From the NCBI RefSeq assembly GCF_030012525.1, contig NZ_CP124855.1:558001-622000 (forward strand): a stretch of DNA of 64,000 nt, given 5' to 3'. This document shows positions 22,830 through 25,731 of the stretch, piece after piece (the first letter of the stretch is position 1; every line of letters starts with the position of its first letter). The notes beneath the pieces are model-generated. The model was not told the origin of the DNA, did not search any database, and saw nothing but the letters and a program-made list of their open reading frames with translations. Source of the DNA: Chryseobacterium gotjawalense. Its GTDB lineage: Bacteria > Bacteroidota > Bacteroidia > Flavobacteriales > Weeksellaceae. A program made the translations under genes and the position numbers.

Positions 22830-22845
22830 TGGGTGATTTCACCCA
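22830..22845. promoter_or_regulatory. 7-2-7 palindrome, copy 1 (operator of the two-component operon)
   Basis: Perfect inverted repeat TGGGTGA-TT-TCACCCA. The 14-bp core GGGTGATTTCACCC recurs unchanged at 25403-25416. Its centre lies about 43 bp before the predicted transcription start of the operon at 22898. NarL-family regulators bind inverted heptamers separated by 2 bp, so the NarL-type regulator encoded at 24754-25398 is the obvious candidate ligand (inference). Confidence 0.7.
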
Positions 22846-22866
22846 TCAGTTTCAACTAATATACTT

Positions 22867-22874
22867 TAAATTTG
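22867..22874 (+). promoter_or_regulatory. Promoter -7 element of the two-component operon
   Basis: TAAATTTG, a full match to TAnnTTTG, 24 nt before the ATG at 22898. No good -33 TTTG is present at the right spacing, consistent with activation from the palindrome just upstream. Confidence 0.6.
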
Positions 22875-22897
22875 TTACTAATAAAACATATTTAGCA

Positions 22898-23305
22898 ATG
22901 AGTGCATTAGAAAAACATTTGATTACAAAGAAAGAAAGTGATCAGTTGGCTACGGAATACGAAAAAACGAATTATGCGGCCATTAATGCAAAAAGACCTC
23001 CTGAAAAACCGGATTCTAAATATTACACTTATGATTTAGAAATTTTACAGGAGTATATCAACATGATCCGCGAAGGAATGGAAAAAATGGGAATAAAAAA
23101 TAAAGGAATCAGAATTACACTAGGAAAATATTCTGACGGCCAATTTGACCCACGGTTAAATCCACTTTACAAAGGCTACCAAACCATATTCTTTTCCCCA
23201 GAAGATATGGGTGCAGCTGAAGATACAAAAGATAATTCTGTAAAAGTCTCTACTCCAGAGGAATTACCGGGTTTAAATTTCGGACAACTCTGTCCACCAT
23301 ATTAA
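22898..23305 (+). CDS. Small hypothetical protein heading a two-component operon
   Basis: A 135-residue soluble protein that I cannot assign. I choose the ATG at 22898; the longer frame from 22829 would cross the palindrome and the -7 element. It has no signal peptide or membrane segment. It contains YYTYDLEILQEYINMIREGM (helical), a central beta-like GIRITLGKYSDGQFDPR, and ends with NFGQLCPPY, a cysteine-proline tail. It is first in an operon with a membrane protein, a histidine kinase and a NarL-type regulator, 10 nt before the next gene. Being promoter-proximal it may be the most strongly expressed product of the operon. Confidence 0.8.
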   Translation: MSALEKHLITKKESDQLATEYEKTNYAAINAKRPPEKPDSKYYTYDLEILQEYINMIREGMEKMGIKNKGIRITLGKYSDGQFDPRLNPLYKGYQTIFFSPEDMGAAEDTKDNSVKVSTPEELPGLNFGQLCPPY

Positions 23306-23315
23306 TTAATATACA

Positions 23316-23981
23316 ATGATCGAATGGAATAGAAATATAGCAAGTTTAATCCAAATTTTGCTGGTGGTAATATTTTTTATATTTCTACTGTTTAAAAGAA
23401 ACAAGCTTGGCAAAGGGATTAATTATTTTATTGTCGCCAGTGGTGTGGTCGTTTTTTTGGATACGCTGATTTTCATAATGCGGATATCGACTTCTCATTT
23501 TAACAGTACTCCTATTTATTCAGTAGGAGTTAATTTCGGTGTCTTTTTACTGTTCTTTTTATACTTTCGCTCTATCTTAGAATTAGAAAAATCTAAAAAA
23601 ATAAACTTGATTATTACAATAATCTTTATCGCCAGTTATATTTCATTTGCAGCTTTTTCTGATAACTTCTTTAATAAATTCCCCTTTAAATTTTATTTTG
23701 TTGAAGTCATCCTCCTGATGGTGAATATCTTTTTGGTTTTGCGTGAGACCTTTAATTCAGATAAGATTCTTAATATCAAGTCGTATTACCCGTTTTGGGC
23801 CTGTATAGGGTTGATGTCCATTTACTTAGGAGTAACCCCGTTACTCATAATAAGTAATACTGCGATACAAATGATGAATATCAATATTTTTTTCATAATT
23901 TTATTCATTGTGAATGTTATCGGATATTCTATTTTGATAACAGGAGTTTTTTTCGCACAAAATATTAATATTAAAAAGTGA
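23316..23981 (+). CDS. Polytopic membrane protein, possible sensor partner of the histidine kinase
   Basis: A 221-residue, very hydrophobic protein with about seven predicted transmembrane helices (starting near residues 8-25, 33-55, 65-87, 95-113, 122-142, 155-178 and 190-213) and no recognisable soluble domain. Its TGA stop overlaps the GTG start of the kinase gene (GTGA, 23978-23981), so the two are translationally coupled. The kinase has only one membrane helix and no sensory domain of its own. I infer, without proof, that this protein supplies the sensing module, as 7TM sensor segments do in other two-component systems. Confidence 0.8.
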   Translation: MIEWNRNIASLIQILLVVIFFIFLLFKRNKLGKGINYFIVASGVVVFLDTLIFIMRISTSHFNSTPIYSVGVNFGVFLLFFLYFRSILELEKSKKINLIITIIFIASYISFAAFSDNFFNKFPFKFYFVEVILLMVNIFLVLRETFNSDKILNIKSYYPFWACIGLMSIYLGVTPLLIISNTAIQMMNINIFFIILFIVNVIGYSILITGVFFAQNINIKK

Positions 23982-24766
23982 ATCTCACAGAAACCGATTT
24001 TCTGCTTACCATTACAACTTTTATCATTTTAATTGTAATTTTAATGATGGTTTTAGTGTATGGGGTTTTCATCAGGAAGAAATCTGAACTTCTTTTATCT
24101 CAACAAAAAAAAGAAGCTCTTTTTGAACAGGAATTGGCAATTTCTCAGGTAGAGATTAAGGAACAAACCCTGAATTATATAGGACAGGAACTTCATGATG
24201 ATTTGGGACAAAAGCTATCTGTAGCAAGATTAATGACTAATAAACTCGGGCTGGCAAATGATGAAGATAAAACAAATATCGCCCAGGAAATCAACCTGTT
24301 GATTGGCGAATGCATTCAAGATATCAGAAACCTTTCTAAAGTATTTATAAGCAAGCAGGTAAAGCATTTTGGATTTGTTGAATCATTGGAAAGGGAAATT
24401 TCCAGAATCGAACGACTGGAGTTACTGGACGTAGAGTACGAGATCAATAATCACGATTTAGAAATTAGTTCTGATCATGCTTTAATTCTGTTTCGAATCA
24501 TACAGGAGTCTATTAACAATGTGATCAAGCATGCCCGATCAAATAAAATATTGATAAAAGTTGAAGATCATCCCAATTTCACTGAAATTAATATTAATGA
24601 TTACGGGGTAGGATTTAATGCAGAACATAGAAATGATGGAAGTGGATTAGAAAATATAAAGAATCGTGCAAAACTGATCGATGCCACTTTTAAGATTAAG
24701 TCTACAGAAAATCTGGGTACCGAAATTACCATCACCTACAAGAAACCCACACCATGGAAAGAATAA
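23978..24766 (+). CDS. NarL-type sensor histidine kinase (HisKA_3)
   Basis: A 262-residue kinase starting at GTG 23978. One N-terminal membrane helix (about residues 9-32), a short coiled coil, then the HisKA_3 dimerisation domain with phospho-acceptor His73 (ELHDDLGQKL), and a HATPase_c domain with N box (IIQESINNVIKHA) and G boxes (NDYGVGF; DGSGLENI; NLGTEITI). There is no extracytoplasmic sensor domain. It overlaps the membrane-protein gene by 4 nt and the response-regulator gene by 13 nt, so all three should be made in fixed proportion. Confidence 0.93.
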   Translation: MNLTETDFLLTITTFIILIVILMMVLVYGVFIRKKSELLLSQQKKEALFEQELAISQVEIKEQTLNYIGQELHDDLGQKLSVARLMTNKLGLANDEDKTNIAQEINLLIGECIQDIRNLSKVFISKQVKHFGFVESLEREISRIERLELLDVEYEINNHDLEISSDHALILFRIIQESINNVIKHARSNKILIKVEDHPNFTEININDYGVGFNAEHRNDGSGLENIKNRAKLIDATFKIKSTENLGTEITITYKKPTPWKE

Positions 24767-25398
24767 AAATAGCAATCGTAGATGACCATAAATTAGTTTC
24801 CAAGGCCATTGAAAACATGATTTCATTTAATCCAAAATTTGAAGTGGTAATGAATTGCTTTAATGGCGAAGATTTTCTGAAACAGCTTGACCACCGGAAA
24901 ATACTCCCTGAAGTAGTGTTAATGGACATCAATATGCCCCGGAAAAACGGCATCGAAACAACCCTGGAACTTACTAAAAACTATCCCGACCTAAAGGTGA
25001 TTGCTTTAACGATGGAAGATAATGAAAGCACCATTATCAGTATGTTGAAAGCAGGCGCGAAAGGATATTTGCTCAAAGATATGTCACCTGATATTCTTTT
25101 TGACGCGATAAATATCGTTCATGAAAAAGGAATTTTCTATACCGATATCGTAACCCAAAGTCTGCTGAAAATAAAAACCGAAGAAAAGATAAATCAAGAA
25201 ATAAACAATTCATTAAAAGACCGCGAGATAGAATTTATTAAATTAGCCTGCTCTGAACTCACCTATAAGGAAATTGCAGAACAAATGTGCGTGAGCCCAA
25301 GAACTGTAGACGGTTACAGAGACTCTATCTTTGCAAAACTGAATGTAAAAACCAGAGTAGGAATTGTGCTTTTTGCCATTAAACATCACATGTGCTAA
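24754..25398 (+). CDS. NarL/FixJ-family response regulator
   Basis: A 214-residue regulator with a complete receiver: acidic pair D10-D11, phospho-acceptor Asp58 (LMDINMP), Thr86 and Lys108 (GYLLKD). The C-terminal LuxR helix-turn-helix (about residues 148-210) includes LKDREIEFIKLACSELTYKE and SPRTVDGYRDSIFAKL. It is the cognate partner of the kinase, whose reading frame it overlaps by 13 nt. The two identical 7-2-7 palindromes flanking this operon are plausible binding sites, giving autoregulation at 22830 and control of a second short transcript at 25403 (inference). Confidence 0.94.
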   Translation: MERIKIAIVDDHKLVSKAIENMISFNPKFEVVMNCFNGEDFLKQLDHRKILPEVVLMDINMPRKNGIETTLELTKNYPDLKVIALTMEDNESTIISMLKAGAKGYLLKDMSPDILFDAINIVHEKGIFYTDIVTQSLLKIKTEEKINQEINNSLKDREIEFIKLACSELTYKEIAEQMCVSPRTVDGYRDSIFAKLNVKTRVGIVLFAIKHHMC

Positions 25399-25401
25399 AA
25401 T

Positions 25402-25417
25402 AGGGTGATTTCACCCT
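25402..25417. promoter_or_regulatory. 7-2-7 palindrome, copy 2
   Basis: Perfect inverted repeat AGGGTGA-TT-TCACCCT with the same 14-bp core as at 22831-22844. It starts 4 nt after the response-regulator stop codon. The gap from the core to the following TAnnTTTG element is 23 nt, against 22 nt in copy 1, so both copies have the same promoter geometry. Confidence 0.7.
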
Positions 25418-25439: not shown

Positions 25440-25447
25440 TACTTTTG
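25440..25447 (+). promoter_or_regulatory. Promoter -7 element for a short transcript
   Basis: TACTTTTG matches TAnnTTTG. It lies 23 nt after the second palindrome and about 37 nt before a rho-independent terminator hairpin. No good -33 element is present, as at copy 1. Confidence 0.5.
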
Positions 25448-25453
25448 TACCAC

Positions 25454-25508
25454 CAAAACACAAATGGTAAAAAAAACATTAAGCCGGTTATTATTTAATC
25501 GGTTTTTT
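25454..25508 (+). ncRNA. Candidate ~55-nt small RNA or attenuated leader
   Basis: The region runs from the predicted start (about 7 nt after TACTTTTG) to the end of the terminator T run. It contains one possible 19-codon frame (ATG at 25464) that runs into the terminator hairpin, so it is unlikely to be a meaningful gene. No family is recognised. The claim rests on promoter, operator copy and terminator being stacked within about 105 bp. Confidence 0.3.
25481..25508 (+). terminator. Rho-independent terminator after the two-component operon
   Basis: Stem CCGGTTA (25484-25490) / TAATCGG (25496-25502) with loop TTATT and one G-T pair, extendable by A-T pairs at the base, followed by TTTTTT. It terminates the response-regulator transcript, the short transcript from 25440, or both. 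From here to the GNAT gene at 25760 I see only AT-rich DNA and the GNAT promoter. Confidence 0.75.
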
Positions 25509-25731
25509 GTTGTTTTGAATTGAAATCTTCAACATTTAAATCATTTTCCCGTGAATTATATTAAATTAAGAATTTACAGTTCCTGCTTTTTTTAAGCCAT
25601 TCAGTCAAAGAAGTTTTATACAAGGAAATTCCAATACCTTAAAAACAACTGATTTCTTTTTCATCTGATTTTTTTTAAAAATAAACAACTCATCAAATTG
25701 CCGCTATTTTTATTGAGAATAAAATCTTCTG

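Follow-up and report, generated by a model that had tools for sequence, protein, structure and literature searches.

A predicted self-activating two-component regulon in Kaistella with a small RNA gene complementary to a multicopy sRNA family

Why is a two-component operon bracketed by two copies of the same palindrome, each standing in front of a promoter-like element? In the 64,000-nucleotide stretch of DNA analysed here (the window), the 14-mer GGGTGATTTCACCC is found at 22831-22844 and 25403-25416. The two lie one on each side of the operon, and the 3,266,523-base (3.27 Mb) genome to which the window belongs (G000; Kaistella, Weeksellaceae) has no other exact copy; base composition would lead one to expect approximately 0.007. 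The palindromes lie where the original prediction had placed them, 22830-22845 reading TGGGTGATTTCACCCA and 25402-25417 reading AGGGTGATTTCACCCT, and the observation as such is confirmed. The 14-mer core is the same at both sites and a seventh outer pair is present at each; the arms of the 14-mer itself, around TT, are 6 nt long, and the 16-mers differ because the outer pair is T-A at one site and A-T at the other. The TAnnTTTG elements follow the palindromes after 22 and 23 nt as described (TAAATTTG at 22867-22874 and TACTTTTG at 25440-25447), and when counted from the CAC of the operators the boxes start after 24-25 nt. The features of the locus are collected in Table 1.

Table 1. Operators, promoters and genes of the two-component locus, in window coordinates
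Feature	Coordinates	Strand	Evidence or remark
Upstream operator TGGGTGATTTCACCCA	22830..22845	.	Precedes operon; kept in 32/32 complete Kaistella loci
-7 box TAAATTTG, operon promoter	22867..22874	+	24 nt after operator CAC; spacing 24-26 in all relatives
ORF1, first operon gene	22898..23305	+	Without known domain; orthologues in most relatives
Membrane protein gene	23316..23981	+	Without known domain
Sensor histidine kinase, HisKA_3 + HATPase_c	23978..24766	+	Domain matches
NarL/FixJ-type response regulator, receiver + GerE HTH; proposed binder of both operators	24754..25398	+	Domains; helix/operator covariation
Downstream operator AGGGTGATTTCACCCT	25402..25417	.	Present in 33/33 orthologous Kaistella loci
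-7 box TACTTTTG, small RNA promoter	25440..25447	+	Spacing conserved in relatives
Small RNA gene M-RNA 1	25452..25509	+	Predicted start ~25452, end at terminator; conserved; fold z -3.2
Conserved segment AACACAAATGGTAAAAAAAAC	25457..25477	+	Complementary to A-RNA seed TTTTTTTTCATCATTTGTGTT; one G-U, one mismatch
Intrinsic terminator stem-loop, then T run	25481..25505	+	Fold and terminator scan

The open reading frame at 24754-25398 was correctly identified as the regulator, as judged by ORF and domain checks: PF00072 and PF00196 both score above cut-off, and the adjacent, overlapping histidine kinase gene contains PF07730 and PF02518. Against the curated NarL equivalog the regulator scored 118 bits, below the cut-off of 250, and so is not assigned to NarL proper (nitrate response). 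An orthologue is present in 33 of 36 Kaistella genomes.

Conservation in relatives, the test set earlier, was assessed on 34 Kaistella loci read from end to end, one of them a paralogue, and in every relative the operator flanks the operon on either side. After the stop codon of the regulator gene, a GGGTG-type operator stands 24-25 nt before a TAnnTTTG-like box in all 33 orthologous loci, and ahead of the operon an operator stands 24-26 nt before the box in each of the 32 loci whose upstream region is complete. The upstream contig of genome G002 ends early, and another G002 contig carries an operator with ORF1 (L177); the regulator paralogue of G002 is without a downstream site. Among 28 non-redundant downstream sites, majority identity is 0.96 for the operator columns and 0.88 for the -7 box, against 0.53 for the spacer between them. 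A search with the operator pattern yielded approximately 60 matches, and the reversed control pattern none. With 24-26 nt between operator and box in every relative, the operator centre falls near -41 relative to the predicted start, the geometry of a class II activated promoter. What is conserved among the relatives is the core GGGTGnTTTCAC and not the perfect 7-2-7 palindrome, because the right arm is often imperfect (CACGG, CACGC or CACTC). The predicted likeness to NarL binding sites is thus retained in geometry and not in perfect arms: the regulator shares with NarL and NarP a receiver and a GerE helix-turn-helix, and the operator has inverted half-sites around a 2-bp centre, but its sequence appears to differ from the NarL heptamer consensus of the literature, its right half is often imperfect, and there is no link to nitrate.

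Variant operators were seen elsewhere. A third copy with one mismatch lies at G000:C1:2300611 (L003), in the window's own genome, 21 nt before a TAnnTTTG box. This variant and another at G004:C2:317520 (L179) stand 21-22 nt before TACTTTTG and upstream of a small lipoprotein-like gene, a candidate third target of the regulon. Two-mismatch copies at G000 829551 and 834751 lie inside a repeat without a promoter and were set aside.

The regulator and the operator change together. The recognition helix opens with SPRT or SHRT in all 33 Kaistella regulators, whose operators end in TCAC, TAAC, TTAC or ACAC; in other genera the orthologues have SPKT, and their operators, where a site was found, mostly end in TTCC. 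The right half of the operator covaries with a single residue of the recognition helix, R with TCAC and K with TTCC. Two cases run across the phylogeny and provide independent contrasts: G307, outside Kaistella, combines an R-type helix with the operator GGGTGATTTTCAC, and the second regulator copy in the Kaistella genome G002 combines a K-type helix with the operator GGGTGAGTTTCC. This covariation is the best available sequence evidence that the regulator binds the predicted site. The proposal of a self-activating regulon of a NarL-family regulator is well supported, because operators with an unchanging distance to the promoter box are conserved before and after the operon, the reversed control gave no matches, and the recognition helix covaries with the operator.

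The original prediction also placed a second target directly after the operon. A target is there, but it appears to be an RNA gene and not a protein gene, which the earlier reading had missed. Comparison of the Kaistella loci strongly supports a predicted gene of approximately 58 nt at 25452-25509, ending in an intrinsic terminator, which we call M-RNA. The downstream layout consists of the promoter, a variable stretch (identity 0.28), the segment ACACAAATrrTGAAAA (0.84) and the terminator, and in 32 of 33 Kaistella loci the regulator is followed by M-RNA with promoter, segment and terminator. The operator and box are kept and the segment is lost in G028 (L075). Tandem M-RNA copies, each with its own operator, are found in G003, G014 and G016, and two other genera have the same arrangement with a different operator and a perfect AAACACAAATGATG (L262, L269, L277). 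The segment occurs within 360 nt of 5 of 27 dispersed operator sites, against 0.34 expected (P ~3e-5). Rfam gave only a sub-threshold Phe_leader match at M-RNA, and RNAalifold found no structure in the M-RNA alignment because the hairpins are misaligned.

Several loci depart from or add to this layout. An insertion-like (IS) sequence interrupts the M-RNA terminator in two of the 32 loci (G025 and G034; L061, L062). A second operator-driven RNA of approximately 290 nt was found in the window's own genome at G000:C1:535285-535620 (L187, L326), with operator GGGTGTTTTAAC and with TATATTTG; it carries ACACAAATGATG and a terminator, adjoins an ion-channel-like gene and has counterparts in G001, G003, G004 and G006. 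In the Chryseobacterium-like genus g26 (L261, L263, L265, L267, L268, L270, L271, L274), the regulator is followed by a variant operator, a conserved leader and a gene for a caspase-like peptidase; the leader matched Rfam DUF805b in two of the tested loci (L261, L271).

Searches with the M-RNA segment led to a second set of RNA genes. ACACAAATnATG has 17 matches in the window's own genome against one for the reversed control, and AAACACAAATGATG has more than 100 in the Kaistella genomes against none. Read in context, one further match belongs to the second operator-driven RNA (G000 about 535.33-535.61 kb), and others have on the opposite strand genes of approximately 95 nt, here called A-RNAs, with a -33/-7 promoter, a 5′ hairpin, UUUUUUUUCAUCAUUUGUGU and a terminator. 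UUUUUUUUCAUCAUUUGUGU is an invariant U-rich seed of approximately 20 nt, complementary to the ACACAAATrrTGAAAA of M-RNA. An A-RNA model (R1) found 1-12 copies in each of 274 of 320 Weeksellaceae genomes, representing 25 of 33 genera, and seven copies in the window's own genome. The seed is invariant across genera, whereas the terminator stem varies with compensation (32 double-changed cells against 7.9 after shuffling). Within Kaistella the invariance of the seed is partly a selection effect, the seed having served to find the copies; no exact 14-mer was used to choose the U8 stretch or the model-scored copies of other genera. Scanning the A-RNA-bearing loci against Rfam with cmscan matched no sRNA family at the gathering score, and a literature search found no description of M-RNA or A-RNA. 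These comparisons strongly support A-RNA as a previously undescribed multicopy sRNA family, predicted from its conserved layout.

Three A-RNA genes lie in tandem beside a ClpB-like gene at G000:C1:2553672-2554091 (L193-L195). Repeats of the form CTTTAGcGGGGAAG...CTTCATCATTTGTGTTTTG...CTTTCCCCTAAAG, with an A-type seed between inverted GGGGAAAG arms, were also seen in the window's own genome (L183, L184, L197, L198) and in G014 (L218). The only two Kaistella genomes without A-RNA, G021 and G026, are both without the regulator; G015, the third without an intact regulator, keeps two A-RNAs. This shared absence, amounting to two or three events, is suggestive of a connection. In G015 (L167/L328) the operon is deleted, and what is left of the regulator is a decayed piece lying immediately behind the upstream operator.

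Pairing between the two RNAs was compared with dinucleotide shuffles, which control for the ease with which A-rich and U-rich sequences pair. M-RNA of the window gave -22 to -29 kcal/mol with its own A-RNAs, where the shuffles averaged -15 to -17. In a wider test, which covered 28 loci and left out eight others, the window's own among them, predicted duplexes with the A-RNA seed were better than shuffles at p<0.05 at 27 loci, and the sole failing locus was the copy without the segment. In many species M-RNA reads AATAATG at the position where pairing with A-RNA calls for AATGATG, which leaves one A-C mismatch; compensating A-RNAs (CATTATTTGTG) were sought in these species and none were found. 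Covariation offers no test of the pairing, because the A-RNA seed does not vary. In G312 and G311 (L262, L269) the start codon of the first operon gene lies within AAAACACAAATGATGG, and the operon mRNA itself would therefore pair with A-RNA there.

Other readings of the downstream region were weighed against this evidence. It is scarcely credible that the downstream palindrome is a plain operon terminator, a hairpin with a T run, and not an operator. The terminator scan does flag AGGGTGATTTCACCCTTTTATTT as terminator-like, but a perfect 6-4-6 stem is present in only 9 of 33 relatives and the T run in 7, whereas GGGTGnTTTCAC is retained, as is its distance from TAnnTTTG, at the upstream site as well; this reading was rejected. 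We also rejected as very improbable a tiny Lys-rich peptide encoded from a conserved ATG or GTG. Most copies contain such a codon and hence short ORFs, for example MKKKRTGF, yet a peptide is unlikely, given how the predicted mini-ORFs vary between species in length, sequence and frame relative to the terminator. The predicted stops fall mostly within the terminator loop, and copies such as L054 have no start codon. There is similarly little chance that protein-coding genes beyond the terminator are all that the regulator activates, the terminator then being an attenuator. In Chryseobacterium an operator-like element after the regulator does stand before a DUF805b-RNA leader and the gene of a caspase-like protein, but the distance to the downstream gene in Kaistella varies (360 to >2000 nt to GNAT), and G003, G014 and G016 contain tandem units of operator, RNA and terminator.

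A more serious competitor, though still unlikely, is that M-RNA has mRNAs or a protein, such as an RRM protein, as its direct target, and that its match to A-RNA reflects resemblance to, or mimicry of, a start region and not sponging. The M-RNA segment resembles a start region (ACACAAAT-ATG-AAAA), the first operon start codon of genus g43 lies within AAAACACAAATGATGG, and a single RRM_1 protein was found in the window's own genome, with neither Hfq nor CsrA detected. However, an antisense match that covers 20 nt of an invariant sRNA seed, longer still in G010 (L229), exceeds what a generic start region needs, and no gene start in the window's own genome clearly has the full ACACAAATGATG 12-mer.

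The reading we prefer, and consider probable with some reservation, is that an autoactivated two-component system makes a sponge, or target-mimic, RNA against the A-RNA family. The operator, the promoter geometry, the regulator-operator pairing, both RNA genes and their complementarity are supported as predictions from sequence comparison. The histidine kinase and the NarL-type regulator would form an autoactivating system, in which the phosphorylated regulator would bind GGGTGnTTTCAC centred near -41 and activate two sigma-A (TAnnTTTG) promoters, that of its own operon and that of the RNA gene of approximately 58 nt directly behind it. Beyond this we infer activation, expression, duplex formation, sponging and the identity of the targets: M-RNA would present ACACAAATrrTGAAAA in a mostly unpaired stretch ahead of its terminator, where it could pair with the invariant UUUUUUUUCAUCAUUUGUGU and, because it matches the A-RNA family base for base, would probably soak up A-RNAs. 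This would free mRNAs that A-RNAs hold through A-rich AUG-AUG start regions. Against sponging, A-rich and U-rich segments pair easily, G015 keeps A-RNAs without the regulator, and A-RNAs reach far beyond the genomes that have M-RNA, so that their main job is something else.

In the GacS/GacA system, a NarL/FixJ-type regulator activates small decoy RNAs, RsmX/Y/Z (CsrB/C), against a global post-transcriptional repressor. The operator differs in the present case, and the target would be an RNA family and not CsrA, of which none was detected in the genome. A tentative extension, to which we give somewhat less than even odds, is that the locus is an RNA-only analogue of Gac/Rsm in bacteria lacking Hfq and CsrA, with a two-component system controlling global, multicopy, translation-repressing A-RNAs through a target mimic that copies the start-codon region bound by A-RNAs. 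A-RNA resembles FopS/GibS of Bacteroides, multicopy sRNAs of which FopS is antagonised by the protein RbpB and not by a known sponge (PMC11697453), in having multicopy paralogues with sigma-A promoters, a conserved seed that is single-stranded and lies ahead of an intrinsic terminator, and an RRM protein in the genome; it differs in its seed (U8-CAUCAUUUGUGU) and belongs to another family of bacteria. The genomic setting, one RRM protein with no Hfq or CsrA detected, is similar to that of FopS/RbpB. The functionally closest known case appears, by analogy, to be QrrT/QrrX of Vibrio cholerae, in which a sponge gene adjoining the gene of its own activator targets the shared pairing domain of the multicopy Qrr1-4 sRNAs (PMC9732341). 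Here too a putative sponge RNA gene lies beside the gene of its proposed activator and would be aimed at a conserved domain of multicopy sRNAs. The present system differs in that its activator is a NarL-type response regulator that works with a histidine kinase and would control its own operon by way of the same operator, and in belonging to another phylum, with no detectable Hfq and unrelated RNA sequences.

Post-transcriptional control in Flavobacteriia is little charted. The locus adds two undescribed RNA families, one of them in most Weeksellaceae genomes, with a defined transcriptional input, an operator whose specificity is apparently switched by one residue of its regulator, and a candidate sponge circuit that is directly testable.
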